In this document: piece by piece, positions 3,715 to 25,480 of the stretch
Position numbering within the stretch: the first letter of the stretch is position 1
Layout: each line of letters opens with the position of its first letter
Source of the DNA: Terriglobales bacterium
GTDB taxonomy: Bacteria; Acidobacteriota; Terriglobia; Terriglobales; Acidobacteriaceae
Length of the DNA: 34,274 bases
Assembly (NCBI GenBank): GCA_015655585.1
Contig: JAATEV010000014.1
Location: forward strand, 1 to 34,274
Direction of reading: 5' to 3'
The notes under the pieces: generated by a model
What the model saw: the letters and a program-made list of their open reading frames with translations, nothing else
The model's database searches: none
Told to the model about the DNA's origin: nothing
Position numbers and translations under genes: made by a program

Positions 3715-4062
3715 AGTGGTCTCCTGGGAAATGCTGCGGAAGTATTGCGAGAGAGACTGCGATGCTGTCTGCTGATATCGCCTGGGAGGAGATGTCGGTT
3801 GGCTGGTTCCGCTCCGGGCAGGATCTTGCAATCAATAGGCACGCTTTTGACTCTCCAGATCGTTCGGCTTCCATCGATCCCGCGCCAGATGGTCTGGCTT
3901 GTCCGACGCGGAATGGAGCTTGAACTGATCGGAGAGCTTTCTAGAGGCACAGGCAGACGAGAAGGGAGACAGGTACAGTCCCTGACCGTCAGGTTTTGAT
4001 CTATCTCATTCATTTTTAGCAACTTGAAGGAGAGGCCCGGACGGCGTCTCCTGCCTGAAAAA
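3715..4062. other. Intergenic region upstream of the TonB-dependent receptor (348 bases)
   Basis: It must hold the receptor promoter and the 3' end of the preceding transcript. I see the receptor ribosome site (CAGGAG) but no convincing -35/-10 pair and no U-tailed terminator. Short reading frames cross it on the minus strand, but they have neither a ribosome site nor a recognisable product. Confidence 0.5.
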
Positions 4063-6920: not shown

Positions 6921-8093
6921 ATGGCCGATAAACGGAATCGACGCTTGCGCCAGCCTGAGCTCGGACAGGCGAATGGAGAGCCTTTGCGGGATACCTCAAT
7001 AGAACACGCTCCAGAGACGCAGCCCGACTCGCCTGGCGGCGGAAGCCGGTTTGTGCAGGCCTGCCTGCGGCTGCCTGTGGACAGGACGCCGGTATGGTTT
7101 CTGCGGCAGGCCGGGCGCTACATGCCGGAGTACATGGCTGTGCGGAAGCACCACTCCCTGCTGGAGATCTGCCGCACGCCGGAGATTGCCGCCGAGGTGA
7201 CGATTACGGCGGCGGAACGGCTGGGCGTGGATGCGGCGATCATCTTTGCCGATCTTCTGCTGCCGCTGACGCCGATGGGGCTGGACTTCGAGTTTGTGGC
7301 GGGCGAAGGCCCGGTGGTGCATACGCCGGTGCGCTCGCTGGAGCAGATTCAGGCTCTGCGAACGGATCGCACCGACGACCTGCTGTACGTGGCGCGAGCG
7401 ATTGAGCAGGTGGCCGGGCACTTTTCCGCTCCGAGGGCCGACGGCGACACGCTGGGCATCATCGGGTTCTGCGGGGCTCCGTGGACGCTGGCGGGCTACA
7501 TGATCGAAGGCGGCAAGCAGAGCGGCGGCGACCGGAACTACATCGAGACGAAGAAGCTGATGTACTCGAACGAGGCGGCGTGGTCTCTGCTGATGGAGAA
7601 GATCGTCACGGTGCTGGCAGACTATGCCCGGCAGCAGGTGGAGGCCGGGGCGGACGTGATTCAGGTCTTCGATAGCTGGGTCGGCAAGTTGAGCGTGCAG
7701 GACTACAGGCAGTATTGCCTGAGCTGGACGACGGTGCTGGTGCAGCGGATTCGGGCGATGGGCGTGCCGGTGATCTACTTCGGCGTGGAGACTGCTTCCC
7801 TGCTGTCGGCGATGAGCGAGACCGGTGCGGACGTGATTGGGCTGGACTGGCGGACTCCGCTGGAGGATGGCTGGAAGGCCGTGGGGCCGGGATGCGGCGT
7901 GCAGGGGAACCTTGACCCAATCGCGCTATTTGCTCCAAACGATGTCCTGAAAGACCGCGTGAAGCAGGTGCTGGACGCGGCGGCACGGCGGCCGGGACAC
8001 ATCTTCAACGTAGGCCACGGCATTGTTCCAGGAACTCCGGTGGAGAACGTGATCAAAGTGGTGGAGTGGGTGAAGGAGTTGGGAAGACGATGA
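6921..8093 (+). CDS. hemE: Uroporphyrinogen decarboxylase
   Basis: A 390-residue cytoplasmic enzyme that removes four acetate carboxyls from uroporphyrinogen III to give coproporphyrinogen III. Diagnostic elements are RTPVWFLRQAGRYMPEY (residues about 55-71, the substrate-binding arginines), IIFADLLLPLTPMG with the catalytic aspartate, GFCGAPWTLAGYMIEGG (about 183-200), and a C-terminal GHIFNVGHGIVPGTPVENV. The first 43 residues are hydrophilic and absent from most homologues. The ATG at 6921 has no good ribosome site, so translation may start further in, for instance near the GTG of RFVQACL. It is followed by hemH with a 4-base ATGA overlap, so the two are translationally coupled. Confidence 0.95.
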   Translation: MADKRNRRLRQPELGQANGEPLRDTSIEHAPETQPDSPGGGSRFVQACLRLPVDRTPVWFLRQAGRYMPEYMAVRKHHSLLEICRTPEIAAEVTITAAERLGVDAAIIFADLLLPLTPMGLDFEFVAGEGPVVHTPVRSLEQIQALRTDRTDDLLYVARAIEQVAGHFSAPRADGDTLGIIGFCGAPWTLAGYMIEGGKQSGGDRNYIETKKLMYSNEAAWSLLMEKIVTVLADYARQQVEAGADVIQVFDSWVGKLSVQDYRQYCLSWTTVLVQRIRAMGVPVIYFGVETASLLSAMSETGADVIGLDWRTPLEDGWKAVGPGCGVQGNLDPIALFAPNDVLKDRVKQVLDAAARRPGHIFNVGHGIVPGTPVENVIKVVEWVKELGRR

Positions 8094-9070
8094 CCTCCGC
8101 GACGACGAAGGCCGCTGTACTGCTGCTGGCCCATGGAACGCTGGACGTACTGGGCGAGATGGCGGAGTATCTGGACAGGGTGACGAGTGGCCGCACGGTT
8201 CCGCAGGAAGTGATTGAAGAGCTGCAACATCGTTACGCGCTGATTGGCCTGGGCGAAACGCCGGGGGCGGAGCCTCCACCTTTGACCAAATGGACCCTTT
8301 TGCAGGGGCGGTTGCTGGAGCAGGAGTTGGGCGGCACGCCGGTGTATGTGGGGATGCGGAACTGGCGTCCTTATATCGCCGATGTGGTGGCGCAGATGCG
8401 TGAGGACGGCGTGACGCAGATCAAGGCGATCTGCCTGGCTCCGCAAAACTCACGGACGAGCGTTGGGCTATATCGCAAGGCGTTGCTGGCAGCGGCTACA
8501 GGGATGGAAGTGGAGTTCGTCGCTGGGTGGGCGGAGCATCCGCTGCTGGCGGAGGCGTTTGCAGAGCGGCTGCGTCCGGTGTGGGACTCAGCCTGCGCGG
8601 AGACGGGCGAGCGCGTGCCGGTTCTGTTTACAGCCCACAGCGTTCCTACGCGGACGGTGATGATGAGCGATGGCCAGCGTGATTCGTATGCCGACGAGTC
8701 GAAACGTACTGCGGAGTTGGTGGCGGAGCGGCTCGGGCTTGGCGAGAGGGACTGGAGATTTGCATTCCAGAGCCAGGGCGTCAGCGGTGGGCCGTGGATT
8801 GGGCCGACGGTGGAAGAGACTCTGAAGGAGATCAAGGCCGAGGGCCATGCCGGGGTTGTGTTGCAGCCAATCGGGTTCCTCTGCGACCACGTCGAGATTC
8901 TTTATGACATCGATATCGCCTTTAAGGCGGCGGCGCAGGAGCTGGGACTGAAGCTATGGCGGCCGGAGAGCCTGAACGATTCGCCGACGCTGGTGAAGGC
9001 GCTGGCCGGGATCGTCTCGGGAAGTTACAAGGCGACCGTCGATGAGGTCACGACGCCGGTTGCGGGGTAG
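8090..9070 (+). CDS. hemH: Ferrochelatase (protoporphyrin or coproporphyrin type)
   Basis: A 326-residue enzyme inserting ferrous iron into a porphyrin. The ATG at 8090 is chosen over an in-frame start at 8066 because it overlaps the hemE stop as ATGA, with purine-rich sequence just upstream. Ferrochelatase hallmarks are VLLLAHGTLD near the start, GMRNWRPYI, the active-site histidine in LFTAHSVPTRTV, and the late GVVLQPIGFLCDHVEILYDIDI, whose acidic residue lines the metal site. In Gram-positive bacteria the same gene order, hemE-hemH-hemY, belongs to the coproporphyrin-dependent route. Sequence reading alone cannot decide which porphyrin is used here, since neither hemQ nor hemN is present. 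Confidence 0.93.
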   Translation: MTSATTKAAVLLLAHGTLDVLGEMAEYLDRVTSGRTVPQEVIEELQHRYALIGLGETPGAEPPPLTKWTLLQGRLLEQELGGTPVYVGMRNWRPYIADVVAQMREDGVTQIKAICLAPQNSRTSVGLYRKALLAAATGMEVEFVAGWAEHPLLAEAFAERLRPVWDSACAETGERVPVLFTAHSVPTRTVMMSDGQRDSYADESKRTAELVAERLGLGERDWRFAFQSQGVSGGPWIGPTVEETLKEIKAEGHAGVVLQPIGFLCDHVEILYDIDIAFKAAAQELGLKLWRPESLNDSPTLVKALAGIVSGSYKATVDEVTTPVAG

Positions 9071-9096
9071 GCTGCAACGACGGTTGGGGAGAGGCG

Positions 9097-10482
9097 ATGA
9101 AGCGTATAGCGGTGGTGGGGGGCGGCATAGCCGGAGTGACGGCTGCGTATGAGCTGTCGAAGGCTGTTCGCGAGGGCGCCGACGTTGAGTTTGTACTCTT
9201 CGAGCAATCGAACCGGCTGGGCGGCATCGTAGAGACGGTGCGCGAGGGTGGGTTCATTCTGGAAGGTGGGCCGGACGGCTGGGTAACGGAGAAGCCTTGG
9301 GCCCGGGAACTGGCCGAAGAGCTTGGGCTGGGCGACGAGCTGATCTACTCGAACGACGAGACGCGGAAGACCTATGTGCTGGTGGATCATCGTCTGCGGG
9401 CTATTCCGGATGGGATGCGCATGATGGTGCCGTCGGACCTGGACGCGCTGGATGCTTCGGACCTCTTCAGCGACGAGGCGAAGACGGCGTTTCGCGAGGA
9501 GTTGGGACGCGCCGAGAGCCTGAAGGCGGAGGCTCCCGGCGAAGACGAGAGCATTGCTGCGTTTGTGCGGCGGCACTTCGGCGACGAGGTGTTGGAGAAG
9601 ATCGGAGCGCCTCTGTTGAGCGGGGTCTTTGGGGGCGACGTGGCGCAACTGAGCGTACAGGCCGTGATGGCTCCCTTTGTGAGAATGGAACGCGAACACG
9701 GCAGCCTGATCGCAGGGTTGCAATCGCGAGTCTCCGAGCAGGCCGCGCCGATCTTTACGACGATCCGTAGCGGCGTGGGAACACTGGTCGAACGGATGAT
9801 TGCAGCGATCCCCGAGGAGTCGGTTCGGCTGGGCGCGGCGGTGAAGTTCGTCTCCAACGGAGACGAGGGCTGGCTGGTGGGCACGGCAAAGGGAGTGGAA
9901 CGGTTTGATGCGCTGATGATGTCCGCTCCCGTGGATGTGGCCGCGACGCTGCTGCGGCCTGTCGATACGCGCGCCGCGGAGTTGATGGAGATGGATGCCA
10001 GCTCGGCCGTGATCGTCGCGTTCGGATTTCCCGATGCATCGAAGTTCTCTATTCCCGAAGGGTTCGGGTTCCTGGTGCCGTCCTCGTCGGAGGAGAGCCT
10101 GCTGCTGGCCTGCACATTTGTGGACCAGAAGTTCAAGGACCGCGTACCGCAGGGAGGACGCCTGATACGAGCTTTCTTCGGCGGAGCGGCGGCGGAGCGG
10201 ATGATGCGCTGCGGCAACGATGAAGCCGCAGCCGTGGCGCGCATGGAGCTGGCGCGCATCCTTGGCCCGCTGCCGGAGCCGCAGATCACCATCGTCCGCC
10301 GCCTGCCGCGCAGCCTGCCGCAGTATGGGGTGGGGCATCTGGAACGCATGGCGGAGCTGGACCGCCGCGTGACGCTGCTTGGAGAGCTGTCGCTGCTGGG
10401 GAACGGATATCGCGGCGTGGGGCTGCCCGACCTGGTACGCGACGCCCGCGACGCCGTCCGGCGAACCGTGGGAAAAAGTTGA
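9097..10482 (+). CDS. hemY: HemY-type protoporphyrinogen/coproporphyrinogen III oxidase
   Basis: A 461-residue FAD-dependent oxidase taking six electrons from protoporphyrinogen IX or coproporphyrinogen III, with O2 as acceptor. The dinucleotide-binding motif VVGGGIAGVTAAYEL is at residues 6-20. It is followed by FEQSNRLGGIVETVREGGFILEGGPDGW, the FAD/substrate contact region of the HemY/HemG2 family. LLSGVFGGDVAQLSVQA (about 185-200) and the C-terminal LLGNGYRGVGLPDLVRDARDA are also typical. The start at 9097 has a GGGGAGAG ribosome site a few bases upstream, and the gap to hemH is only 26 bases, so hemE-hemH-hemY form one operon. It may act on coproporphyrinogen (CgoX type) if the organism uses the coproporphyrin branch. 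Confidence 0.93.
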   Translation: MKRIAVVGGGIAGVTAAYELSKAVREGADVEFVLFEQSNRLGGIVETVREGGFILEGGPDGWVTEKPWARELAEELGLGDELIYSNDETRKTYVLVDHRLRAIPDGMRMMVPSDLDALDASDLFSDEAKTAFREELGRAESLKAEAPGEDESIAAFVRRHFGDEVLEKIGAPLLSGVFGGDVAQLSVQAVMAPFVRMEREHGSLIAGLQSRVSEQAAPIFTTIRSGVGTLVERMIAAIPEESVRLGAAVKFVSNGDEGWLVGTAKGVERFDALMMSAPVDVAATLLRPVDTRAAELMEMDASSAVIVAFGFPDASKFSIPEGFGFLVPSSSEESLLLACTFVDQKFKDRVPQGGRLIRAFFGGAAAERMMRCGNDEAAAVARMELARILGPLPEPQITIVRRLPRSLPQYGVGHLERMAELDRRVTLLGELSLLGNGYRGVGLPDLVRDARDAVRRTVGKS

Positions 10483-10504: not shown

Positions 10505-10542
10505 GGTCAAAATTTGACCGCGGGTCCCGGCCAAGATAGTCT
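10505..10542 (+). promoter_or_regulatory. Probable promoter of the cobalamin operon, -35 inside a perfect palindrome
   Basis: GGTCAAAATTTGACC at 10505-10519 is a perfect inverted repeat (7-base arms around one A). Its right arm supplies a TTGACC -35 box (10514-10519). Seventeen bases later lies a weak -10, TAGTCT (10537-10542). The implied transcription start at about 10548-10550 coincides with the first paired base of the riboswitch (10549). The palindrome could be a repressor operator or the foot of a hairpin at the end of hemY. Confidence 0.45.
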
Positions 10543-10548
10543 TCTTCT

Positions 10549-10704
10549 ACATCTGGTGTTGGGAAGACGGTGCAAATCCGTCGCTACCCCGTAACTGTAA
10601 GCGCCGAGGATTTTTGACGGTTTGTTCTAAGCCACTGGAGTTTCTTCTGGGAAGGCGAGTCAAAAAAGGCCGAGGACGCGCAAGTCAGGACACCCGCCGG
10701 ATGT
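10549..10704 (+). ncRNA. Cobalamin (AdoCbl) riboswitch
   Basis: The closing helix P1 pairs ACATC (10549-10553) with GATGT (10700-10704). Between them are the elements conserved in this class: GGTGTTGGGAAGACGGTGCAA, then ATCCGTCGCTACCCCGTAAC, then TGTAAGCGCCGAGGAT, the receptor loop strand with GCCACTGG and CTGGGAAGG, and finally the B12 box AAGTCAGGACACCCGCC (about 10682-10698). It precedes cobU and should reduce expression of the eleven-gene cobalamin operon when adenosylcobalamin is abundant. Confidence 0.93.
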
Positions 10705-10718
10705 CAATTCAGGCTTGA

Positions 10719-10822
10719 TTCAGCTTCGCTGGGAGAGCTGAAAAGCATTCTCGCAGACCCCACATACGGTCTGCATGAGCGCCGCCTCCATCTTTAAATT
10801 CCCGCTTTGCCCCTATGGGGCA
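10719..10822 (+). promoter_or_regulatory. Chain of hairpins between riboswitch and cobU (expression-platform candidates)
   Basis: Three perfect hairpins follow the aptamer. TTCAGCT/AGCTGAA (10719-10725 with 10736-10742) carries a GGGAG in its loop. GCAGACC/GGTCTGC (10753-10759 with 10768-10774) ends at the base before an ATG at 10775. TGCCCC/GGGGCA (10808-10813 with 10817-10822) stands four bases before the AAGGAG of the internal ATG. None has a U tract, so control of translation is likelier than termination. Confidence 0.4.
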
Positions 10823-10846
10823 GACAAGGAGTTGGCTACGCAAGAT

Positions 10847-11392
10847 ATGCGCCAAGGTTCGGTGACACTGGTGCTCGGCGGCGTGCGCAGCGGCAAGAGC
10901 CGTTACGCGCAACACCTCGCCGCGCAGCAGGAGCGTGTGATCTTCGTGGCCACGGCCACGGCCTCCGACGAGGAGATGCGGATCAAGATCGAGCGGCATC
11001 GTGAGGATCGCCCCGGCCAGTGGCTCACCCTGGAAGAGCCGTTGGAACTGGCCCAGGCACTGGCAAAGCACCAGCCGGAGTGCGACGTCATTCTGATCGA
11101 CTGCCTGACCGTCTTCGCCGCAAACCTTCTGGAAAAAGAGGGCGAAGACCGCGCCGCCATCGAGAACCGCGTCGTGGCGTTGTGCGAGGCCCTGCGCGTG
11201 GCGGACTGCAATGTCATTCTTGTCTCGAACGAGGTCGGCAGCGGCGTGGTTCCGGCTTATCCGCTGGGGCGTAGGTATCGCGATCTGCTTGGCGAGATCA
11301 ATCAACGCATTGCAGCCATTGCAAACGACGTAGTGCTGATGGTCGCCGGATTGCCACTTGCACTGAAGGGACACATCGAGGTGCAGCCATGA
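10847..11392 (+). CDS. cobU: Adenosylcobinamide kinase / adenosylcobinamide-phosphate guanylyltransferase
   Basis: A bifunctional enzyme that phosphorylates adenosylcobinamide and transfers GMP from GTP, giving adenosylcobinamide-GDP for CobS. The P-loop GGVRSGKS lies at residues 11-18. [18 protein letters not shown] carries the histidine that forms the guanylyl intermediate. [14 protein letters not shown] and [25 protein letters not shown] are the family's other conserved blocks. The ATG at 10847 gives the classical N-terminus ([12 protein letters not shown]) and follows an AAGGAG, though at a long spacing of 15. An in-frame ATG at 10775 would add 24 residues with no family resemblance and abuts a hairpin with no ribosome site. 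It is the first gene of the cobalamin operon and overlaps cbiA by ATGA. Confidence 0.93.
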
Positions 11393-12783
11393 AGGGGTTT
11401 CTTCTGGCCGGTACTGCGAGCGGCGTAGGCAAGACAACCATCGCACTGGCAATTATGGCCGGGCTGCGAAGGCGCGGCCTCGCAGTGCAGCCCTTCAAAT
11501 GCGGCCCCGACTTTCTGGACACGACGCATCACACGCAAATCTGCGGCCGCCCCTCGCGCAATCTCGATACATGGATGCTCAGTGTAGAAGCCAATCGCGA
11601 CGTGATCCGCAATGCAGCTAAAGACGCCGACGTGTTGATCGCCGAGGGTATGATGGGCCTGTTCGATGGCAAGAGCGGAGACGCTGAGACGGGCAGCAGC
11701 GCGGAGATTGCGAAGCTCCTGAAGCTGCCCGTAGTTCTTATCGTCGATGCCGCAAAGACGGCACGCAGCATAGCCGCTGTCGTACTTGGATTCGAATTGT
11801 TCGACCCAGAGTTACAAATTTCCGGAGTCATCCTGAACCGCGTAGCGAGCGAGCGTCACTTCGCAATGCTGCAAACCGCAATTCATGCATCGTGCAAGAC
11901 AAAGATCCTCGGATGGTTCCCCAAGGAAGCGGCGATCACGATCCCTGAAAGACATCTGGGCTTGCATCAGGCGGACGAACAATCCTTGCAAGAGGAAGCC
12001 ATGGCCGCGCGGGTCGATACACTGGCCGCGCTTGCCGAAAAGCATCTTGAACTGGATAAGCTGCTGGAACTTCATTGTGGAATGGAGTTTGCCGAGAGCA
12101 GACGCCTCGCTGGAACTACTGCGCAGGCAAAAATAAGAATCGGTGTAGCGCGCGATGCCGCGTTCTCCTTCTACTACGAGGACAATCTCGACCTACTGCA
12201 GGAGCACGGCGCGGAGTTGGTTCCCTTCAGTCCGATTCGAGACGGGCAGCTTCCGAACAATCTCAACGCGCTCTATCTTGGCGGCGGCTATCCTGAACTC
12301 CATGCCCGTGAGCTAAGCGCAAACAGCGCGATGCGCGATGCGATCAAGACCTTCGCTGCAACCGGCAAGCCCATCTATGCAGAGTGCGGCGGCATGATCT
12401 ACCTCTCCAACGCCCTGAGAAATATCGAAGGCGAAGACCATGCACTCTGCGGCGTGCTTCCACTCTCGTTCGAGATGACCGGCAAACTGGTTCACTTCGG
12501 CTATGCAACGGTCGAGTTCGTCAACGACTGTTTGCTTGGCCCCAAAGGAACAATCATCCGGGGACACAGCTTTCACTACTCGCGCATCGCCGCCACGCCG
12601 CAGCTTGCAACGAGTTACCGAGTGCAATACTCCATGTCCGGTAAGGAAGAGCTTGAAGGCTTTCAAAGCGAGAACATCCTCGCGAGCTATATTCACCTGC
12701 ACTTCCGCTCCAACCCTGTTGTCGTCGAAAACCTTATCGGGGCAATTCACCGCGCCGCTTCCCCGCAGGCGGTGGGCGCATGA
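11389..12783 (+). CDS. cbiA: Cobyrinic acid a,c-diamide synthase
   Basis: A 464-residue glutamine- and ATP-dependent amidotransferase that amidates the a and c carboxyls of cobyrinic acid (CbiA in the anaerobic nomenclature, CobB for the hydrogenobyrinate enzyme). The N-terminal dethiobiotin-synthetase-like half has the P-loop [11 protein letters not shown] (residues 7-17) and [13 protein letters not shown]. The C-terminal class I glutaminase-like half has [17 protein letters not shown] and the nucleophile Cys333 in [11 protein letters not shown], with a late HSFHYS. The start ATG overlaps the cobU stop (ATGA). Its presence means the organism can process cobyrinic acid, although no corrin-ring genes lie in the window. 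Confidence 0.94.
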
Positions 12784-13862
12784 AGCAGACCGCACTGCTC
12801 GCTGAAACCATCGCTGCGATAGCTCCTCCGAGCAGTGTCTGGCACGCTCGTGCCCGCGCTCGGCTCGACACCCTGACAAAACCGCTGGGCAGCCTCGGAC
12901 GCCTGGAAGACATCGCCGCGCAGATCGTGGCCATCCATCGTGAGTGCGCGACCACTCCTTTGCGCAAAGCCGTTTATGTATTTGCCGCGGACCACGGCAT
13001 CACAGCAGAAGGGGTCAGCGCATATCCCGCGGAAGTAACGCAGCAGATGGTGATGAACTTTCTTGCAGGCGGAGCCGCGATCAACGTTCTCGCGAGACTC
13101 CATCATGTGGAGATGAACATTGTCGACGCAGGCGTCAACGCAGATTTCGCTGACGTCCCCGGTCTGCTGCATCGCAAGGTACGCCGAGGCAGTCGCAATA
13201 TGCTGCACGAAGCCGCAATGAGCGACGATGAGTTGGCTCAGGCACTCTCAGTGGGGACCACACTGGCCAGTGCCGCGAAAGAGGCTGGGCTGCAACTACT
13301 CGCCGTCGGTGAGATGGGCATTGGAAACACAACCGCGGCCAGCGCCATTACGGCAATGCTGACGGGCAAGCCCGCCACCGAAGTCACCGGCAAAGGCACG
13401 GGACTCGATGACAGCGCCCATGCAAACAAATGCCGCGTCATCTCGGCGGTCATCGACGAGCATCGCAAAATATGTAACAAGAATGGAACAATTTATCCGC
13501 TGGAGGTTCTGCGTTGTGTTGGCGGATTAGAGATCGCTGCCATGACCGGCATGATCCTCGGCGCAGCCATGCATGGAATCGCGATCGTCATCGATGGCTT
13601 TATATCGAGCGCCGCCGCGGCTGTTGCCTTCGCAATCGAACCAAAGATCGCTGGCTATCTCTTCGCGGGGCATCAGTCTCAGGAACCCGGCCACAGAGTT
13701 CTTCTTGAGTTCATGAGACTGCGGCCGATTCTCTCGCTGGACATGCGGCTTGGCGAAGGCACTGGGGCCGTACTTGCGATGCCGGTGATCGAGTCCGCGC
13801 TCGCGCTCTATAACGAGATGGCCACCTTCACCTCAGCAGGCATCAGCGAGGCGGGCCTGTGA
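12780..13862 (+). CDS. cobT: Nicotinate-nucleotide:dimethylbenzimidazole phosphoribosyltransferase
   Basis: A 360-residue enzyme that activates the lower ligand. It exchanges nicotinate of NaMN for 5,6-dimethylbenzimidazole to give alpha-ribazole 5'-phosphate. Family marks are LTKPLGSLGRLEDIAAQIVAIHR (about 32-54), FAADHGITAEGVSAYPAEVTQQMVMNFLAGGAAINVLAR, GEMGIGNTTAASAITAML, and the catalytic glutamate E326 in DMRLGEGTGAVLAM. Length is normal. The ATG overlaps the cbiA stop by ATGA. With bluB later in the same operon, the cell can make and activate its own dimethylbenzimidazole. Confidence 0.95.
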   Translation: MKQTALLAETIAAIAPPSSVWHARARARLDTLTKPLGSLGRLEDIAAQIVAIHRECATTPLRKAVYVFAADHGITAEGVSAYPAEVTQQMVMNFLAGGAAINVLARLHHVEMNIVDAGVNADFADVPGLLHRKVRRGSRNMLHEAAMSDDELAQALSVGTTLASAAKEAGLQLLAVGEMGIGNTTAASAITAMLTGKPATEVTGKGTGLDDSAHANKCRVISAVIDEHRKICNKNGTIYPLEVLRCVGGLEIAAMTGMILGAAMHGIAIVIDGFISSAAAAVAFAIEPKIAGYLFAGHQSQEPGHRVLLEFMRLRPILSLDMRLGEGTGAVLAMPVIESALALYNEMATFTSAGISEAGL

Positions 13863-14623
13863 AGAAGACTTCCGGCATTCTGCGCTCCGGCGAAGACCTG
13901 CTCGCAGCTTTCCAATTTCTCACGCGCATTCCAATGCCATCGGTAGAGTTCGAAGCAGATTCACTGGCTCGCGCAACCAAGTTCTTCCCTATCGTTGGCC
14001 TTGCGGTTGGCTCTGGCGCAGTGATGCTGCAATGGCTTCTGCTGCCTCATCTCAACCGCGCCATTGTTTCCCTCGCCGTGTTGCTCTACCTGGTTCTCAT
14101 CACCGGCGGCCTTCATGAAGACGGTCTTGCAGACGTTGCCGACGGATTTGGCGGAGGCTGGAACAAGGAGCAGATACTTCTCATCCTAAAGGACAGCAGG
14201 ATTGGCAGTTATGGCGCAGCATCGCTGGTTCTATCACTGCTTGGCCGCTATCTTCTCCTTGCTGCGCTGCCTCTGCAGCACTTCGCAGGTTATGTTATTT
14301 CAGCTCACGTATTATGCCGCTGGAGCGCGCTTCCACTCAGCTACTTTCTTCCTCCGGCACGGACTACAGAAAGTCAGGGCGCACGCATCGCCCGTCTTAC
14401 CTCACTCTCTTCCTTACTTATCGGCTCTGCCATCAGCTTCTTGATTGTCCTGTTCGCACTACGATCCGCCGCGCTGGCGCCTATTCTCTTCGCTCTGCTG
14501 CTCACTGCTCTTAGTGGCTGGTTCTATTCCAGAAAGATCAGCGGCGTAACAGGCGACTGCTTCGGCGCTACAAATCAACTCACCGAGATCGCGATCTATC
14601 TCTGCGGAGCGTGGCAGGCATGA
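13859..14623 (+). CDS. cobS: Adenosylcobinamide-GDP ribazoletransferase (cobalamin synthase)
   Basis: A 254-residue integral membrane enzyme joining adenosylcobinamide-GDP to alpha-ribazole phosphate, the last condensation of the pathway. It has about six hydrophobic segments and the conserved metal-binding region GGLHEDGLADVADGFGGGWNKEQIL with LKDSRIGSYG (residues about 80-120). RWSALPLSY and GVTGDCFGATNQLTEIAIYL come later. Translation begins at GTG in a GTGA overlap with the cobT stop. The nearest candidate ATGs would lose conserved sequence. The product anchors the late steps at the inner membrane together with CbiB. Confidence 0.94.
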   Translation: MKKTSGILRSGEDLLAAFQFLTRIPMPSVEFEADSLARATKFFPIVGLAVGSGAVMLQWLLLPHLNRAIVSLAVLLYLVLITGGLHEDGLADVADGFGGGWNKEQILLILKDSRIGSYGAASLVLSLLGRYLLLAALPLQHFAGYVISAHVLCRWSALPLSYFLPPARTTESQGARIARLTSLSSLLIGSAISFLIVLFALRSAALAPILFALLLTALSGWFYSRKISGVTGDCFGATNQLTEIAIYLCGAWQA

Positions 14624-15204
14624 GCGCGATTCTCTTCATTCGTCACGCGGAGACCGACCTTGCAGGTACATTCTGTGGCCACTCGAATCCATCGCTCAAC
14701 GCGAAAGGGCGCGTGCAAATTTCCGAACTTCTTCTTGCGCTCAGAACAGAGGAGATTCACCATGTGTATGCCAGTGATCTGGCGCGTGCGCAAGAGACCG
14801 GAGAGGCGATTGCAAAGGCCCGTCATCTCCAATGCCACGTGAGGCCAGCATTGCGCGAGATTCATTTCGGACGATGGGAAGGAAGAACATGGGAGGAGAT
14901 CGAGCGCCTGGATTACGCCTATGTGCAACGATGGCTAGCCGAATATCCTGATCTTCCGGCTCCTGAAGGAGAGTCCTTTGCTGACTTCAAAGGCCGCGTA
15001 ATCAGCGAATTGGATTGCCTTGCAGACGACGCCAAAATGGGCACTACCGCTGTTGTCACCCACGCAGGAGTCCTTCGCATCGTCCGCCAGCATTTGTTCG
15101 GCCTCTCTCAGGAAGAGTCCATGCAGCAGCTTCCTTACTGCTCCATCCTTCGTTATACAGTCGCAGCGACTGGAGCTTATGACGTGCAGGAGGTTTCTCT
15201 ATGA
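14620..15204 (+). CDS. cobC: Alpha-ribazole phosphatase, histidine phosphatase family
   Basis: A 194-residue phosphatase of the histidine (phosphoglycerate-mutase-like) branch. Given its place in the operon it should remove the 5'-phosphate of alpha-ribazole phosphate or of cobalamin phosphate. The catalytic histidine is in FIRHAETD (His9). GHSNPSLNAKGRVQISEL, VYASDLARAQETGEAIA, LREIHFGRWEGRTWEEI and VVTHAGVLRIV (second histidine) complete the active site. The ATG at 14620 is chosen over a GTG at 14611 because it forms the ATGA overlap with cobS seen at every junction in this operon. Members of this broad family differ in substrate, so the specific call rests on context. Confidence 0.88.
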   Translation: MSAILFIRHAETDLAGTFCGHSNPSLNAKGRVQISELLLALRTEEIHHVYASDLARAQETGEAIAKARHLQCHVRPALREIHFGRWEGRTWEEIERLDYAYVQRWLAEYPDLPAPEGESFADFKGRVISELDCLADDAKMGTTAVVTHAGVLRIVRQHLFGLSQEESMQQLPYCSILRYTVAATGAYDVQEVSL

Positions 15205-16061
15205 GTTCCTCCGGAGTAGAAGTTCATGAACTGATCGGTTGGGGATTGGATGATTATTCTTTTCGCAACTCTTCTTCCGAATTGGATATAGCCAGCCGAG
15301 ATAGACACGCATCGCAGCAGCTATCCCAGGAGCCTTCTTGCAAAGCTTCAACAGCGTTGGTTGACACTCCACCGCGAGCGGAAGAGCTCTTCCGCAGCTC
15401 TATGCAAAGGACCGATCTGCATCGCGAATATGCAGACCTCGATTGGACGCTCGGCATCATTGACCTGCGTCAACTGCTCGCGTTTCAGCGGAGACTTGTC
15501 TTCGATTCAGAGATACAACAGCGGCCAACTCCATCACAGGATCACTGGCCTGAACTTTTTTCACTTTGCCTTGGAGGCAAGAGAGAGATCGAGCACTCTC
15601 TACAGAGAGTCATAAGCAACGACTCTTCTTCGGAGTTCACGATTCAATCGAGCAATCCCGATCTACAGCTACGGTTATCTCCAGATATCGACTCTTGCAA
15701 CTGTTTTCCTTTTTCTCTTTATGGAGGGAGCCCGTTCCTTGAGGTTGCGGAGTTCCGCCAACGGTGGCTTTTGCGGGATGGTTATCATCGCGCATACCAT
15801 CTCTTGAAGGCTGAAGTGCATCATGTTCCCGCCGTGGTGATTCGCGCCCGAACGATAGAAGAGGTTGGTGCAGTGCAGCCGTGGTTCTTCGGCGAAGAGG
15901 TTCTCTTCTCGGCTCGACCTCCACGCGTTACAGATTTTCTATGTCCAGAATTGGTTCTCCGATACAAGAGACAGCGTTTCAGAAAAAGCATCCACATTCG
16001 CATCGAAGAATCTTTCGAACCGGTTCACGAACCATCCGATCATTCAGGAGACACTCTATGA
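15201..16061 (+). CDS. Unknown protein of the cobalamin operon with ParB/sulfiredoxin-like DGYHR motif
   Basis: I do not recognise a named family for this 286-residue protein. It has no signal peptide or membrane segment. Residues 1-75 are low-complexity and hydrophilic. LDWTLGIIDLRQLLAFQRRLVF (79-101) followed much later by FRQRWLLRDGYHRAYHLLKAEVHHVPAVVI (185-214) resembles the ParB/sulfiredoxin fold, in which a 'D-G-x-H-R' loop binds nucleotide phosphate. That fold also serves the free-serine kinases SerK (Thermococcus) and SbnI (Staphylococcus). The gene overlaps its neighbours by ATGA at both ends, so it is co-translated with the cobalamin genes. The operon has CobD but no PduX-type threonine kinase, so L-threonine kinase is my best functional guess. 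An accessory reductase or regulator is the alternative. Its base composition is somewhat lower in G+C than that of the first operon genes. Confidence 0.8.
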   Translation: MSSSGVEVHELIGWGLDDYSFRNSSSELDIASRDRHASQQLSQEPSCKASTALVDTPPRAEELFRSSMQRTDLHREYADLDWTLGIIDLRQLLAFQRRLVFDSEIQQRPTPSQDHWPELFSLCLGGKREIEHSLQRVISNDSSSEFTIQSSNPDLQLRLSPDIDSCNCFPFSLYGGSPFLEVAEFRQRWLLRDGYHRAYHLLKAEVHHVPAVVIRARTIEEVGAVQPWFFGEEVLFSARPPRVTDFLCPELVLRYKRQRFRKSIHIRIEESFEPVHEPSDHSGDTL

Positions 16062-16636
16062 GCATCGCAACCACACGAGGAGACGGGGGACAAACCGGAC
16101 TGGCAGGCGGGATTCGTGTCTCCAAGGCAGACCTCCGTGTCGAGTCCTACGGCTCCGTCGATGAGCTCAATACCGTGCTCGGCTTCGCACGAAGCATCTG
16201 CACCAACAAAGATATTTGTAACTGGACTGAGAACATTCAGCGCACACTCTTTCGTCTCGGCTCGGCCCTTGCCACGCCTCCCGAGAGCAAGAAGCAGCCA
16301 CCTTCCATCACAACAGAAGACGTAGACACCCTGACCAACCTCGTTCATCAGATCGAAGCGACCGAAGGTATCCTCTCCGATTGGTCGTTGCCCGGAGCCC
16401 ATACAGAGTCCGCCGCATACGAGGTTGCCCGCACCGTGTGCAGACGCGCAGAGCGCAACGCTGTGCGTCTTGCGGCAAGCGGCGTCGAAGTGAAGCCGGA
16501 GATCCTCGCCTACCTGAATCGCCTGTCGGACCTGATCTGGCTCTTCGGGCGATTGATTGAGCTGAACGCCGGCGTGGATGCGCGACTTCGTACCGAAGCA
16601 ACCTCCGGGCCTAAGTGGTCACGAGCATGGAAATGA
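16058..16636 (+). CDS. pduO: Cob(I)alamin adenosyltransferase, PduO type
   Basis: A 192-residue enzyme that transfers the adenosyl group from ATP to reduced cobalt, making the upper ligand of coenzyme B12. The N-terminal ATP loop TTRGDGGQTGLAGG (residues 5-18), VESYGSVDELNTVLGFAR, LPGAHTESAAYEVARTVCRRAERNAV and the final LNRLSDLIWLFGRLIE are the PduO/MMAB family signature, distinct from CobA/CobO. The ATG at 16058 forms an ATGA overlap with the preceding gene and begins just before the ATP loop; a longer in-frame extension to 15881 would lie wholly inside that gene. The reductase that makes cob(I)alamin is not obvious here. Confidence 0.94.
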   Translation: MSIATTRGDGGQTGLAGGIRVSKADLRVESYGSVDELNTVLGFARSICTNKDICNWTENIQRTLFRLGSALATPPESKKQPPSITTEDVDTLTNLVHQIEATEGILSDWSLPGAHTESAAYEVARTVCRRAERNAVRLAASGVEVKPEILAYLNRLSDLIWLFGRLIELNAGVDARLRTEATSGPKWSRAWK

Positions 16637-17316
16637 AGAGAGCGCCCGGCTTTGAACAAGAACATCGCGACGGCATCTACAGAGCTATCCGCGAACGCAG
16701 AGATGTGCGTCGCGGCTTCCTGCCTGAACCGTTGCCCGATGAGCTGCTGTATCGTTTGCTCGAAGCCGCCCACAATGCGCCGTCCGTAGGATTGATGCAG
16801 CCGTGGCGCTTCATCGTCGTGAAGGATGCGAGCGTGCGCCAGAAGATTCACAAGCTCTTTCTTGAGGCGAACCAAACGGCGCAGACCAGCTACGAAGGCG
16901 AGCAGCGAGCGCTCTACTCCGGGATGAAGCTCGAAGGCATCCTTGAGGCTCCACAAAATTTGTGTGTGGTGTGCGACTCGCAGAGCACGCAAGGTCATGG
17001 GCTGGGCAGGCATACCATGCCCGAGACCGCGCTCTACTCCACCGTCTGCGCTGTGCAGAATCTCTGGCTCGCAGCTCGTGCAGAAGGCGTTGGCGTTGGC
17101 TGGGTCAGCATTCTCGCTCCCGACCGCCTGCGCAGCGCTCTGAACATTCCGGAAAACATGACTCCCGTTGCCTATCTATGCCTCGGTTACGTCGAGGCCT
17201 TCGCCGATACGCCTGACCTGGAAAAATTCGGCTGGGAAAAACGCACTCCGCTCAGTAGTGTTCTCTCTTTCGATCGCTACGACAGCAGTGAGGAAACGGA
17301 GAAGCCTGCACGATGA
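16633..17316 (+). CDS. bluB: 5,6-dimethylbenzimidazole synthase BluB
   Basis: A 227-residue flavin-dependent, O2-requiring enzyme of the nitroreductase fold. It cleaves its own reduced FMN to give 5,6-dimethylbenzimidazole, the lower ligand of cobalamin. RAIRERRDVRRGFLPEPLPDELLYRLLEAAHNAPSVGLMQPWRFIVV (about 17-65) is the BluB version of the FMN-binding region. GLGRHTMPETALYSTVCAVQNLWLAARAEGVGVGWVSIL is the second diagnostic block. The ATG at 16633 is chosen because it overlaps the pduO stop by ATGA; ATG 16627 and GTG 16615 are in frame just upstream. Its presence points to an aerobic life and to true cobalamin rather than another cobamide. Confidence 0.93.
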   Translation: MKRAPGFEQEHRDGIYRAIRERRDVRRGFLPEPLPDELLYRLLEAAHNAPSVGLMQPWRFIVVKDASVRQKIHKLFLEANQTAQTSYEGEQRALYSGMKLEGILEAPQNLCVVCDSQSTQGHGLGRHTMPETALYSTVCAVQNLWLAARAEGVGVGWVSILAPDRLRSALNIPENMTPVAYLCLGYVEAFADTPDLEKFGWEKRTPLSSVLSFDRYDSSEETEKPAR

Positions 17317-18902
17317 GCGCGCGCTCCATCATGATTCTGGGCACAAGTTCGCATGTAGGCAAATCGCTCCTCACTGCCGGGCTCTGCCGCATCTTCGCGC
17401 AACAAGGCCATCGTGTCGCTCCATTCAAGTCGCAAAACATGTCGCTGAACTCAGCCGCCACTGTGGAAGGACTTGAGATTGGCCGCGCGCAGGCCTTGCA
17501 GGCGGAGGCCGCAGGGGTACCCGCCTCCGTGCACATGAATCCCATCCTCATCAAGCCTTCGGGAGACTCTTCATCGCAGGTGGTTGTTCGCGGCAAGATC
17601 TGGGGCCAGATCACTGCTGCGGACTACCATCGCCGCCGCGTCACGGAGTTGTTGCCGATTGTGCGCGAAAGCTACGAGATACTCGCCAGCAAGCACGACG
17701 TAATCATTCTCGAAGGAGCCGGCTCCCCCGCGGAGATCAATCTGAAGCAGCACGACATCGCCAATATGCGCATGGCAGAGATGGCCAACGCCGCGTGCCT
17801 TCTGGTCGGCGACATCGATCGCGGAGGAGTCTTCGCTTCATTGCTGGGCACACTCGAACTGCTCACAGCCGAGGAGCGAGAGCGGGTAAGAGGATTCGCA
17901 ATCAATAAATTTCGAGGCGATGCAAACCTGCTGACTCCGGGCATTCAAATGATCGAAGAGCGCGTGCACAAACAATGCATTGGCGTCGTTCCGTATCTGC
18001 ACTCCCTGGCACTGGAAGAGGAAGACAGCGTAGGCCTGAACGCGGCCAAGCAATCGACCTGGAGCAAGGAAGATCTCGCGAACCACTCCGCAGAGCGGCC
18101 ACTCCGCATCGCAGTTCTAGCACTTCCCTTCTTCTCGAACTTCACAGACTTCGACTCTCTTCGCAGCGAGCCCTCCGTCTCATTGCGATTCTGCAATCAG
18201 GCTGAAACTATCGCGCAAGCAGACATCGTCATCCTCCCCGGCACCAAACAGACCGTGGACGATCTTCAATGGATGCGCAGCAATGGTCTCGACCACGCTA
18301 TACAGAGCTTCTCCTCAAAGGGGCTGGTCGTCGGCATCTGTGGAGGGATGCAGATGCTGGGTGAAACGATCAGCGACCCGTTCGAGATCGAGCATCGTGG
18401 CACTACGGAAGCTCTCGGACTGCTGCCATTGCAAACGATCATGCAGACCAGGAAGACTACCCGGAACGTCTCAGGCAGGTTCGCAGCAACGACTTTGTTT
18501 GGACAGACAATCGAACCCCTTCCTCTGAGTGGATACGAGATCCACATCGGCCAGACGATCTACTCCCCGCACGCAAATCACTTCGCTACCTTTTCTGTTC
18601 CAGACGACAGCAAAGACGGCTGCATCAGTGCAAACACTCAAGTCTTCGGCACTTATCTTCACGGCGTATTTGATGACGATGCGTTTCGCCATCACTTTCT
18701 CAGTGCGGCACGCGCTTTCTATGGGCTCAACAAGACAGGCGAACTTACACAATGGAAGCTTCTCCGCGAAGCATCTCTCGACAGGCTGGCATCTGCACTA
18801 AGTCGATCTCTGGACATGGAGAAGATATTCAACTGGGTCAACCTCACTTACAACAGACCCGAATCAACCAGCCAAATTCCCAGCGTTGAGGCCGTGCAGT
18901 GA
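17313..18902 (+). CDS. cobQ: Cobyric acid synthase
   Basis: A 529-residue glutamine-dependent amidotransferase that amidates the b, d, e and g carboxyls of adenosylcobyrinate a,c-diamide to give adenosylcobyric acid. The N-terminal synthetase domain shows IMILGTSSHVGKSLLTAGLCRIF (residues 6-28), VAPFKSQNMSLNSAAT, and VILEGAGSPAEINLKQHDIANMRMA. The C-terminal class I glutaminase domain carries the nucleophile Cys343 in GLVVGICGGMQMLGE, and a TYLHGVFDDD block with the catalytic histidine. Length is slightly above the usual 480-510. The start is an ATGA overlap with bluB. Confidence 0.95.
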   Translation: MSARSIMILGTSSHVGKSLLTAGLCRIFAQQGHRVAPFKSQNMSLNSAATVEGLEIGRAQALQAEAAGVPASVHMNPILIKPSGDSSSQVVVRGKIWGQITAADYHRRRVTELLPIVRESYEILASKHDVIILEGAGSPAEINLKQHDIANMRMAEMANAACLLVGDIDRGGVFASLLGTLELLTAEERERVRGFAINKFRGDANLLTPGIQMIEERVHKQCIGVVPYLHSLALEEEDSVGLNAAKQSTWSKEDLANHSAERPLRIAVLALPFFSNFTDFDSLRSEPSVSLRFCNQAETIAQADIVILPGTKQTVDDLQWMRSNGLDHAIQSFSSKGLVVGICGGMQMLGETISDPFEIEHRGTTEALGLLPLQTIMQTRKTTRNVSGRFAATTLFGQTIEPLPLSGYEIHIGQTIYSPHANHFATFSVPDDSKDGCISANTQVFGTYLHGVFDDDAFRHHFLSAARAFYGLNKTGELTQWKLLREASLDRLASALSRSLDMEKIFNWVNLTYNRPESTSQIPSVEAVQ

Positions 18903-19855
18903 GCAGCCGCGCAATCATTACAGCAGCCTACTTGTTTGACTGGATCGCGGGAGATCCTGAATGGTTCCCGCACCCAGTACGCCTTATCGGAAAGTACATC
19001 GACCACGGCGAGCGACTCTCGCGGCGCCCCGGCCAGAGGTCTTCTACCGAACTCGTCTATGGTGGAGCGCTCGCAGCTACGACAATCGCCTTGTCGTATC
19101 TAGGCACTTCTTATGCTATCCAGTGGAGCTATCGACGAGGCCGATGCTTCGGAGTTGTCACGGAAGTTGCATTAGCATGGACCTGTTTAGCGTCTCGCAA
19201 TCTGCACGACGAGGCCACCGCGGTTATCGATGCGCTTGAAGCGGATGACGTAGTGCGAGCTCGTAAGAGACTGGCAAGGATCGTAGGACGCGACACAGAG
19301 CATCTCGATGAGCAGGAGATCTGCCGGGCAGTAATCGAAACCATTGCGGAGAGCGCTTCCGATGGCATCATGGCTCCGCTCTTTTATATGGCCTTGGGAG
19401 GCGCTCCGCTCGCTATGGCTTATAAAGCGACGAACACACTCGATTCCATGATCGGCCATGCAGATGAAAACTACTTTTATTTTGGGAAAATTGCAGCACG
19501 CCTGGATGATATTGCTAACTTCCTGCCATCCCGTCTTACTGCACTGAGTATCGCCGCAACTACTACTCTTATCCCGAAGACTAGTTTCTCCTCAGCCCTG
19601 ACTACATGGAACCGTGATGGAGGCAAGCATAAAAGTCCGAACGCCGGACAGCCCGAGAGCTCCATGGCAGGAGCCTTGCAGGTGAGGCTTGGAGGAAAAA
19701 ACTTTTACGACGGAGAGCCAATCGAAGCTCCCTTGATCGGCGAGGCCTTTGCATCTCCATCGATAGAGCACGCCAAGCGGGCGATTCGAGTTGTCTCGAT
19801 TGTCTCCATCCTTGGAGCCGTTGCGGTTCTCCTACTGAGAGGACGACGGCGATGA
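18899..19855 (+). CDS. cbiB: Adenosylcobinamide-phosphate synthase
   Basis: A 318-residue membrane protein that attaches (R)-1-aminopropan-2-ol phosphate to adenosylcobyric acid. The family opening is clear: LFDWIAGDPEWFPHPVRLIGKYI (residues about 12-34). RKRLARIVGRDTEHLDEQEICRAVIETIAESASDGIMAPLFYMALGGAPLAMAYKATNTLDSMIGH (about 118-188) is the strongest diagnostic block, and the AGALQVRLGG near the end is also typical. Translation begins at GTG in a GTGA overlap with cobQ. The next gene, cobD, supplies the aminopropanol phosphate. Confidence 0.94.
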   Translation: MSSRAIITAAYLFDWIAGDPEWFPHPVRLIGKYIDHGERLSRRPGQRSSTELVYGGALAATTIALSYLGTSYAIQWSYRRGRCFGVVTEVALAWTCLASRNLHDEATAVIDALEADDVVRARKRLARIVGRDTEHLDEQEICRAVIETIAESASDGIMAPLFYMALGGAPLAMAYKATNTLDSMIGHADENYFYFGKIAARLDDIANFLPSRLTALSIAATTTLIPKTSFSSALTTWNRDGGKHKSPNAGQPESSMAGALQVRLGGKNFYDGEPIEAPLIGEAFASPSIEHAKRAIRVVSIVSILGAVAVLLLRGRRR

Positions 19856-20967: not shown

Positions 20968-22824
20968 CTACCAAAGTGGGTATGGCTTCGCCTTCCGGTC
21001 AAAGTACATCTGGTACGGGAAGCCTTCGTTGTAAGCATAGAACGGACGGAAACGAAGCCGGATGTTCTTTCCGTCCGGGCGTTCGACGCGATACATCCCC
21101 GGCACAGCCGGAGCGGAAAAATGCGATGCCAGCGGACTATCGTCCGCAATCAGCAGCTTATTCAGAGCCTCGTCATCGCCCGGAAGAATGAAGTCAGGAT
21201 CGTGGTAGTCATAGTCCAGAGCAAGCACAACAGGCCCACGCACAACCGCAACACGATCCGGGTTCTGCTGATCGACAGCTTCCATCCGCAGAAGCATGGG
21301 GACATGAATCTCTACCTTGTCTCCGGGGTTCCACTCGCGTGACAGGCTCGCCCATGTGCCGGGCTTGCACGCAACGGATGCAGCAGCTCCATTCACCTTG
21401 ATCGACATGTTCTGGCACCACTCCGGAACCCGGAACCGCAAATCGAACTTCTTGCGCTGCTTCATGTCGAAGCTCAACGAAACCATGTCCTTCAGCGGAT
21501 ATTCCGTCTGCTGAGTTACTTTGATCTCGTCTCCCTGATGCTTCCAGCTCAATTCCGAAGGAACATATAAGTTGACATACAGCCCGGATGAATCCTTGAA
21601 ATAAATAAGGTTGTAATAGTCCGCAAGATTCTGAAAGTAAGTTCCCGAGCAACAGGTGAAGTTATCCCAGCGATCGACCTTCATTCCTCCCGAAACGCGG
21701 TAGTCGGAGTAATAAAAATTGCGTCCGCCTTCCGTCACCGGAAGCGAAGCTCCAACGCCGTTATAGAAGAGTTTCTCGATCCAGTCCCCGTAACGGGCCT
21801 CGCCCGTGAATTGCATAAGATGCTGAGACATTTTGAAAGCTCCCCACGTGCCGCATCCCGTCTCAAACGTATCAGACCTCGTATCCAGGGCTTTACCAAG
21901 GCTTCCATCCGGAGCCATAAAGCGTTCGTTCGGCCCATAGCCGCCCGTTGCATAACACTGCCGCCGCTGCATGTAGTCGTAGGCATTTTTCAGAACACGC
22001 AGGGTCTCCGGATCGCCACTCACGGCGTAGTACATTGCTGCACTGCTGAAGGTATTCACATGGCTGAAGGCATGAACTCCATGAGCATCCGCCGGATCTG
22101 CCGTGGCCGCAAACTTATTCCAATAACTCGGATAGAGCCATACCTCGGCAAAGCTCTTATACTTCGGATCGCCCGACACCTGGTAAGCCCGATATAGATT
22201 TTCCGAGAGCTTGTACCACTCCCCCGGCTTACCCGAGTAGTAGACATTATCTTCTTTGATAGCCGGCATTCTTTCGCGACTTAGATTTTTCTCCGCCCAT
22301 CTGGTACTTTTCTCCAGCAATGCCATCGCGGTCTTATCCCCCACATAGACATGCATATCCACCAGACCGCAGTTCAGCTTTGCAAACTCCACTCGCGGAT
22401 TATCATCCGGGCCAATCGTCTTCGCCCATTCGTTCAGCAGATAGGTCGCCTTGTCGCGATAAGCCACGTCTCCCGTGGCACGGTATAGACGCGACATCGC
22501 GCTCATCCAATCGCCCAGCAATCCGCCCGTGCTCCTCGCCGCCCATCCTCCAAGCGTCTTACCCGGAGCGGGCAGCCCCGCCGCCGCACGAAAACCGTGC
22601 AGAATATCGTCATCCGAAAGCCCCAGATAGTAGCTTCTCGCGACCTCCACCTGATTCTGCCATCGGCTCTTCAGCAGCCGAACCCCTTGAAACTCGAACG
22701 ACTCCATTTTGACCGCGGGCTGCGTATCCGCAAATGCGGAAGAGCTATGCGAAGCATAGGCCAGCGTTGCAACCGTAGACGAGGCAGTCTTCAAAAAATC
22801 GCGGCGAGAAATACGATGGTTCAT
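20968..22824 (-). CDS. Tat-exported DUF1680 (GH127-like) glycosidase, variant metal site
   Basis: A 618-residue exported protein of the beta-L-arabinofuranosidase superfamily (DUF1680). The twin-arginine signal RISRRDFLKTASSTVATLAYA (residues 4-24) is followed by an (alpha/alpha)-barrel with LYRATGD, YQVSGDPKY and FTGEARYGDWIEKLFYNGV repeats and C-terminal beta-sandwich sequence. In characterised GH127 enzymes the zinc ligands are Glu-x-Cys plus a Cys-Cys pair. Here the corresponding stretch reads DTFETGCGTWG (E321, C324), one residue longer, and the pair is FTCCSGTYFQ (C391, C392) instead of CCPPN. It probably belongs to a distinct DUF1680 subgroup with another substrate. The ATG has a CAGGAGA ribosome site and lies 47 bases after the GH127 paralogue, so the two form an operon. 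Confidence 0.88.
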   Translation of the reverse strand: MNHRISRRDFLKTASSTVATLAYASHSSSAFADTQPAVKMESFEFQGVRLLKSRWQNQVEVARSYYLGLSDDDILHGFRAAAGLPAPGKTLGGWAARSTGGLLGDWMSAMSRLYRATGDVAYRDKATYLLNEWAKTIGPDDNPRVEFAKLNCGLVDMHVYVGDKTAMALLEKSTRWAEKNLSRERMPAIKEDNVYYSGKPGEWYKLSENLYRAYQVSGDPKYKSFAEVWLYPSYWNKFAATADPADAHGVHAFSHVNTFSSAAMYYAVSGDPETLRVLKNAYDYMQRRQCYATGGYGPNERFMAPDGSLGKALDTRSDTFETGCGTWGAFKMSQHLMQFTGEARYGDWIEKLFYNGVGASLPVTEGGRNFYYSDYRVSGGMKVDRWDNFTCCSGTYFQNLADYYNLIYFKDSSGLYVNLYVPSELSWKHQGDEIKVTQQTEYPLKDMVSLSFDMKQRKKFDLRFRVPEWCQNMSIKVNGAAASVACKPGTWASLSREWNPGDKVEIHVPMLLRMEAVDQQNPDRVAVVRGPVVLALDYDYHDPDFILPGDDEALNKLLIADDSPLASHFSAPAVPGMYRVERPDGKNIRLRFRPFYAYNEGFPYQMYFDRKAKPYPLW

Positions 22825-22871
22825 ACTATCTCCTGACTAATTTTAAAATATCGACTTATAAAAATCGGAAA

Positions 22872-25289: not shown

Positions 25290-25480
25290 CTGGATTTCCT
25301 GTTCTTTAGGAGTTGTAAGTATGGCGTGAATTCTACCAAGCCTCTGACGAACTCTGCTTCGCCCAGACCGTCGCAACCGCCCGGCAAAAATCACTGTCAA
25401 GCCCCGGAAACGCAAATCCCCGCGTCAATCCTGAGCAATTCATGTGGCGTACTAGTTTGCCCAGTCCTTTAAAATAGAAA
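25290..25480. other. Region upstream of the GH127 operon
   Basis: The first 191 bases of the 387-base gap between the GH127 start and the next gene should hold the promoter of the glycosidase pair. A perfect TTGACA lies on the minus strand at 25395-25400, but no -10 box stands at the right distance. The rest of the gap is a strong hairpin and a tract of ten G, listed separately. Confidence 0.35.

Follow-up and report, generated by a model that had tools for sequence, protein, structure and literature searches.

A cobalamin riboswitch in the window (the whole stretch of DNA that was analysed, 34,274 nucleotides, which forms contig C52 of a 3.1-Mb assembly that is 74.7% complete) heads an operon of eleven overlapping genes on one strand, in the order cobU-cbiA-cobT-cobS-cobC-X-pduO-bluB-cobQ-cbiB-cobD (Table 1). 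Inspection of the sixth of these, gene X, confirms the plus-strand reading frame given in an earlier note on this DNA, together with the overlaps by which that note had tied the gene to its neighbours. The tetranucleotide ATGA joins the cobC stop to the gene X start at 15201-15204 and the gene X stop to the pduO start at 16058-16061, and AGGAGG stands immediately 5' of the gene X start. The motifs reported for the product are likewise present, DGYHR at residues 193-197, HVPAVVI at residues 208-214 and IIDLRQLLAFQRRLV at residues 86-100.

Table 1. Positions in the window of the operon and of features within gene X.
Feature	Position	Strand	Basis
Cobalamin riboswitch	10537..10715	+	Rfam RF00174, 88.1 bits, E 1.1e-20
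cobU	10775..11392	+	PF02283
cbiA/cobB	11389..12783	+	NCBIfam PRK01077, above cut-off
cobT	12780..13862	+	TIGR03160, above cut-off
cobS	13859..14623	+	PF02654
cobC, alpha-ribazole phosphatase-like	14611..15204	+	PF00300; TIGR03162 142 bits, below cut-off of 163
Gene X, candidate L-threonine kinase with predicted ParB/sulfiredoxin-type fold, 286 aa	15201..16061	+	ORF, overlaps, family, predicted fold
Box I, residues 86-100, IIDLRQLLAFQRRLV	15456..15500	+	D88, F95-Q96-R97-R98 invariant
Stretch between boxes, residues ~104-170 (approximate), one helix and beta-hairpins	15510..15710	+	DSSP of models
E181, invariant acid ahead of box II	15741..15743	+	44-copy alignment
Box II, residues 191-214, LRDGYHR...HVPAVVI	15771..15842	+	44-copy alignment, SerK/SbnI comparison, scores
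pduO-type cobalamin adenosyltransferase	16058..16636	+	PF01923, TIGR00636
bluB	16615..17316	+	TIGR02476, above cut-off
cobQ/cbiP	17313..18902	+	PRK00784, above cut-off
cbiB, aminopropanol-phosphate attachment	18899..19855	+	PF03186
cobD, putative threonine-phosphate decarboxylase, 370 aa	19852..20964	+	PF00155 (aminotransferase class); named from operon position and enzyme class

Gene X is unclaimed by Pfam at E-values up to 5 and has no NCBIfam match at 0.01, and PDB sequence searches with gene X, A1 and A2 as queries returned no relevant match. The portions of the open-licence PMC literature that were retrieved hold no description of gene X or of a threonine kinase with a ParB fold.

Other genes border the operon on both sides. 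Directly 5' of the riboswitch (6921-10482) lie the haem genes for uroporphyrinogen decarboxylase, ferrochelatase and protoporphyrinogen oxidase; of the 42 X-positive CbiB loci described below, 11 have the latter two at the corresponding position, and other loci may be cut. The 3' side is occupied by two adjoining genes for GH127 beta-L-arabinofuranosidase-like proteins (20968-25415, minus strand). Near the start of the window, a minus-strand open frame of 1197 codons (238-3831) is probably the true gene at that position, and the plus-strand frames lying over it (811-1860 and 2539-3999) matched no Pfam family.

Distribution of gene X and its association with CbiB

Gene X is an old gene of the Acidobacteriaceae, and its named carriers include Edaphobacter and Granulicella as well as Terriglobus and other members of the family. 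Searches of 200 family genomes gave matches in 17, the window's own included, or in 16 once the distant match in G063 (28%) is set aside. When 16 relatives were fetched, gene X was found within the cob operon in 15 and between cobC and pduO in 14, with a placement between cobS and pduO in locus L022, where cobC was not found; G063 is the sole one of the 16 whose match lies outside the operon. A contig scan with the single gene X sequence gave no match. Repeating it with an alignment gave 34 loci (several of them the same genomes under other names), all of them in the operon, with cobC upstream in 33 and the contig cut at that point in L090. Across a phylum sample of 396 genomes, matches were obtained in 17, comprising 16 Acidobacteriaceae and the distant G371; for the match in G524, a TGA is reported inside the span. 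One contig labelled Rhodanobacteraceae (L100) carries a whole Acidobacteria-type operon that includes gene X and is either misbinned or transferred.

The 77 fetched copies and that of the window were thinned to 44 at less than 88% identity, and 22 positions are invariant in this non-redundant set: L80, W82, D88, F95-Q96-R97-R98, P178, E181, R188, L191-R-D-G-Y-H-R197, F229, P240-P241 and D245-F246. Seventeen of these residues lie in or near two stretches termed boxes I and II, a clustering that looks, from the alignment, like an active site. The recurrence of this slot among relatives in many genomes, together with the 22 invariant columns, makes the arrangement more than chance.

Proteins of the broader DGYHR family are found elsewhere too. 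One distantly X-like protein, which has the motif LKDGYHR (L033, 8946-9860, minus strand), lies between genes that by eye are motA/motB-like and flagellin-like, and G371 holds two distant paralogues (L219, 3506-4489, minus strand; L220, 7919-8956, plus strand), each adjoining a protein of 701-769 residues that by eye appears membrane-bound. The distant paralogues of G063 and G371 were considered as replacements for gene X and rejected, their neighbours by eye not being cob genes.

To learn which part of the pathway gene X accompanies, its distribution was compared with that of CbiB, for which searches gave 24 matches in the same 200 family genomes and 51 in 398 genomes. Loci were fetched for the 50 matches other than that of the window. 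Where the junction between cobC (or cobS) and pduO is legible, as in 44 clusters, gene X is present in 42, or in 43 of 45 with the window; many of these clusters are close relatives and hence not independent. The six uninformative matches are G111 and G199, which are cut before the junction, G040, which is a fragment with a stop, and G063, G071 and G100, where divergent CbiB proteins stand in other settings. G063 combines CbiB with a CobD-containing fusion, and its sole X-like gene is a distant paralogue in a motility context; the fusion is one frame of 849 residues (L225, 6084-8630, minus strand) that joins CobD to a part judged CobQ-like by eye, and CbiB in this genome adjoins a protein like CbiS/CbiZ (75 bits against a cut-off of 250).

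The association also holds when whole genomes are compared. Among the 200 family genomes, all 16 with gene X have CbiB, and none of the 176 lacking a CbiB match has gene X. Within the 26 CobT-positive genomes, gene X occurs in 16 of the 20 with CbiB versus none of the six without it (Fisher p 0.0009, a value that ignores relatedness). A search of those six with the Pfam CbiB profile confirmed the absence of CbiB; completeness in three of them is 68-85%. Together with the locus itself and the loci of relatives, this co-occurrence supports the membership of gene X in the cobalamin operon that the earlier note had proposed.

The two clusters without gene X belong to G137 and G142 (both 77% complete), where CbiB is present and the cobC-pduO junction is readable. 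In both, bluB lies on another contig, and in G142, which thus has CbiB, CobD and BluB without gene X, a divergent cobD (36%) stands beside that bluB. Four extra genes in these operons were scanned for a substitute kinase and rejected, being NMT1-like, an amidase, an FAD-binding protein and a TonB receptor.

In G092 (99% complete) and G073 (68%), cobC directly abuts pduO, and neither gene X nor CbiB is present. G092 otherwise keeps the order cobT-cobS-cobC-pduO-bluB. These junctions indicate that gene X is not tied to cobT, cobS, cobC or pduO. The nucleotide-loop, adenosylation and dimethylbenzimidazole (DMB) genes thus seem able to do without gene X, which appears to accompany the CbiB section of the pathway; its occurrence only with CbiB, and never in CobT-positive genomes that lack CbiB, points to the aminopropanol branch. 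The G092 operon may be decaying, since pduO and bluB are each split between two frames there (L195, 10598-11977, plus strand), through frameshifts or assembly errors; pduO is likewise in two frames in G073 (L199).

Predicted fold and the two conserved boxes

Structure prediction was performed on the full-length protein with AlphaFold2 (16 sequences; pLDDT 87.1, pTM 0.83) and on residues 75-271 as a trimmed AlphaFold model (44 sequences; pLDDT 89.9, pTM 0.81). Foldseek comparison of the trimmed model with the PDB ranks first SerK, the ADP-dependent free serine kinase of Thermococcus kodakarensis (PDB 5x0b, 5x0e-5x0k), through entry 5x0k with E 0.064 and probability 0.77. Among the best 50 of 130 matches, the first 36 are ParB, Noc, KorB, PadC, SerK (with 1vk1 counted as such), sulfiredoxin and Atu1540 (five matches, whose title names no family), at E up to 1.2, and the first clear outsider appears at rank 37 (E 1.3, probability 0.02). 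TM-scores by query length for the 36 are 0.16-0.31 and no PDB match reaches E 0.001, the best being that of SerK, so that the fold call rests on the consistency of the matches. The full-length model is more mixed: its top four matches are PadC and ParB (E 0.11-0.27), outsiders begin at rank 5, and SerK is absent among the best 50 of 149. The viral set gave as its best match a putative ParB/sulfiredoxin protein of a phage (E 0.0027, probability 0.99).

Profile comparison was carried out with a ParB set of 28 of 30 loci (L245 left out, L254 too short), drawn from a longer match list. Alignment of the 44 gene X sequences to these with hhalign was not significant (probability 2.6%, E 0.018) and left DGYHR unaligned, with an E-value better than those of 12 unrelated controls (best 0.063); PF02195 (ParB_N) gave no match to gene X in Pfam. 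Taken with the box II scores given below, the predictions support a ParB/sulfiredoxin-type core for gene X, as the earlier note had suggested, and a predicted core shared with the CTPase domain of ParB, Noc and KorB.

Box II is of the same kind as that of the serine kinases. D193-G-Y-H-R197 is present in all 44 copies of gene X, and SerK has DGHHR, so that both share DG-x-HR with an Asp-to-Pro distance of 17; the same distance follows DGVHR in SbnI, the free serine kinase of staphyloferrin B synthesis (PDB 5uje, 5ujd, 6nr6). In contrast, the 28 ParB sequences all have GERR and none has DGxHR. With a position matrix of box II, the highest score among 2,420 unrelated ORFs was -9.8, and both SerK (-3.0) and its Pyrococcus furiosus relative (-2.5) exceed it. 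The SerK level is also attained by seven of the 28 ParB sequences, and three of the 2,420 ORFs beat the weaker SbnI score (-11.1). Neither SerK nor SbnI matches gene X at the sequence level.

Box I differs from that of the serine kinases. SerK reads PHE30 and SbnI LHE, whereas across residues 84-101 of gene X a conserved Glu is lacking: in every column there Glu occurs in at most one of the 44 copies, and the sole conserved acid is D88. E30, which we take to be a catalytic residue of SerK, is mutated in deposited structures according to their PDB titles, and by eye it falls on A94 or Q96 of gene X. The spacing is also unlike, with 97 residues from Q96 to D193 of gene X and 39 from E30 to D69 of SerK. 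In ParB, QPR occurs in 27 of 28 sequences and FQPR in six; the FQRR of gene X, with its Q96-x-R98, is similar by eye and not above background. We leave this resemblance out of the evidence, since the ParB scores (-7.6 to -23.7) do not stand out from those of unrelated ORFs (median -17.0; 448 of 2,420 at -12 or above), and the gap-free best registers that set the Q and R of ParB on Q96 and R98 in 12 of the 28 likewise score within background.

Judged by the E30 residue, gene X is not a SerK, and its product could either be a kinase that uses a different base or bind NTP without being a kinase. The lack of the SerK glutamate speaks against a simple reading of gene X as a relative of SerK and SbnI, as does the substrate: PMC5120207 describes the characterised SerK as serine-specific, with threonine not used.

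A further family was considered. PF23719 ('Antitoxin VapB-like') gives sub-threshold matches around DGYHR in 37 of the 44 gene X copies (best E 2.3e-5); membership was rejected at 12.6-17.6 bits in the members with scores shown, and 12.6 bits in the window copy, against a Pfam cut-off of 27.

A candidate threonine kinase and alternative roles

The CbiB part of the pathway needs CobQ, CbiB and CobD, all encoded in the operon, and an L-threonine kinase, to which no gene is assigned. To our knowledge, threonine phosphorylation is the only NTP-requiring reaction of this branch that lacks a gene here, which makes a kinase the likeliest single reading of gene X. PduX is a GHMP kinase and BluE is not known outside Rhodobacterales; these known bacterial L-threonine kinases catalyse the reaction, in the same pathway, that we propose for gene X, which in contrast matches no GHMP family in Pfam or NCBIfam. 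The operon had been described as lacking PduX, and none was recognised among the GHMP-family proteins of three carriers of gene X (G000, G150 and G168, with three each). NCBIfam names eight of the nine as galactokinase, homoserine kinase (ThrB) or IspE (three in G000, three in G150, two in G168), and the ninth, in G168, was seen via a galactokinase-like motif alone. The evidence is permissive, the window's own genome being incomplete and PduX-less annotation being common among real producers: according to PMC6461909, a pduX annotation is missing from the majority of genomes of experimentally verified cobamide producers. As to BluE, which the earlier note called unrelated to PduX, the papers disagree, one terming it non-orthologous (PMC8123684) and the other a PduX homologue (PMC6249242).

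We therefore propose that gene X encodes an NTP-dependent L-threonine kinase with a ParB/sulfiredoxin-type core that serves the B12 linker, a reading to which we give about an even chance. The enzyme would produce L-threonine O-3-phosphate from free L-threonine, for decarboxylation by the operon's CobD to (R)-1-aminopropan-2-ol O-phosphate, which CbiB would then attach to adenosylcobyric acid. The DGYHR turn of box II would hold the nucleotide phosphates, aided by the invariant FQRR of box I. Because the glutamate of SerK is missing, another invariant acid would be needed as catalytic base, and D88, E181, D193 and D245 are the candidates. An O-phospho amino acid is also what SerK makes, and SbnI, like the enzyme proposed here, acts within a biosynthetic pathway. 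Nucleotide binding, the kinase reaction and threonine as acceptor are the inferred parts of this proposal.

The most credible alternative, which we nonetheless hold to be rather unlikely, is that the product of gene X binds nucleotide without being a kinase and has an accessory or regulatory part in the CobQ, CbiB and CobD steps, its ParB-type core acting as an NTP switch or a scaffold, for example by assembling CbiB with its substrates. The missing glutamate at the E30 position and the invariant Q96-x-R98, which by eye recalls the Q-P-R of ParB, would suit such a role, and co-occurrence with CbiB fits it as well as it fits a kinase. The ParB fold is described in PMC12704722 as a versatile NTP-using module that acts as switch, enzyme or scaffold. 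Against this reading, Pfam names neither ParB_N nor another DNA-binding domain in gene X, box II has a DGxHR that the ParB set lacks, and the gathering of invariant residues around the boxes resembles an active site.

It is improbable that gene X phosphorylates free L-serine, or both serine and threonine, in which case CobD would yield ethanolamine phosphate and the cell would produce either a norcobamide or a mixture. The serine specificity of SerK in the text cited above (PMC5120207) favours this, as does the PDB name of SbnI, O-phospho-L-serine synthase. Against it, no norcobamide is known to us from these bacteria.

A role in adenosylation or DMB synthesis beside pduO and bluB, such as a corrinoid reductase or a partner in FMN supply, would account for the direct overlap with pduO and for the joint loss of gene X and bluB from the operon in G137 and G142. 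We consider it quite improbable: pduO stands beside cobC without gene X in G092 and G073, BluB-like matches occur without gene X in four CbiB-less genomes (G092, and G029, G054 and G094 at 41-44% identity) and on the other contig in G137 and G142, and gene X persists in G429 and G741, whose operon loci contain no bluB.

Some CobD proteins are themselves threonine kinases, for example the bifunctional archaeal MM2060 of Methanosarcina with its C-terminal extension, and ThrB is present in G000, G150 and G168; it is nevertheless very improbable that such an enzyme supplies threonine phosphate while gene X has an unrelated operon role, given that the CobD here, at 370 residues, has no room for that extension and that gene X is tied to CbiB in its distribution.

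Returning to the threonine kinase, we suggest tentatively, and with slightly less than even confidence, that the Acidobacteriaceae recruited a ParB/sulfiredoxin-fold protein with a SerK-like DGxHR box as a dedicated threonine (or threonine/serine) kinase for the B12 linker, as a further independent solution to this step that uses a base other than the SerK glutamate. By annotation, many cobamide producers have no known gene for the threonine-phosphate step (PMC6461909). If true, the proposal would close this gap for a group of soil bacteria and improve the annotation of B12 synthesis, and it would add a new reaction to those of the ParB/sulfiredoxin fold and a threonine kinase with a quite different fold.
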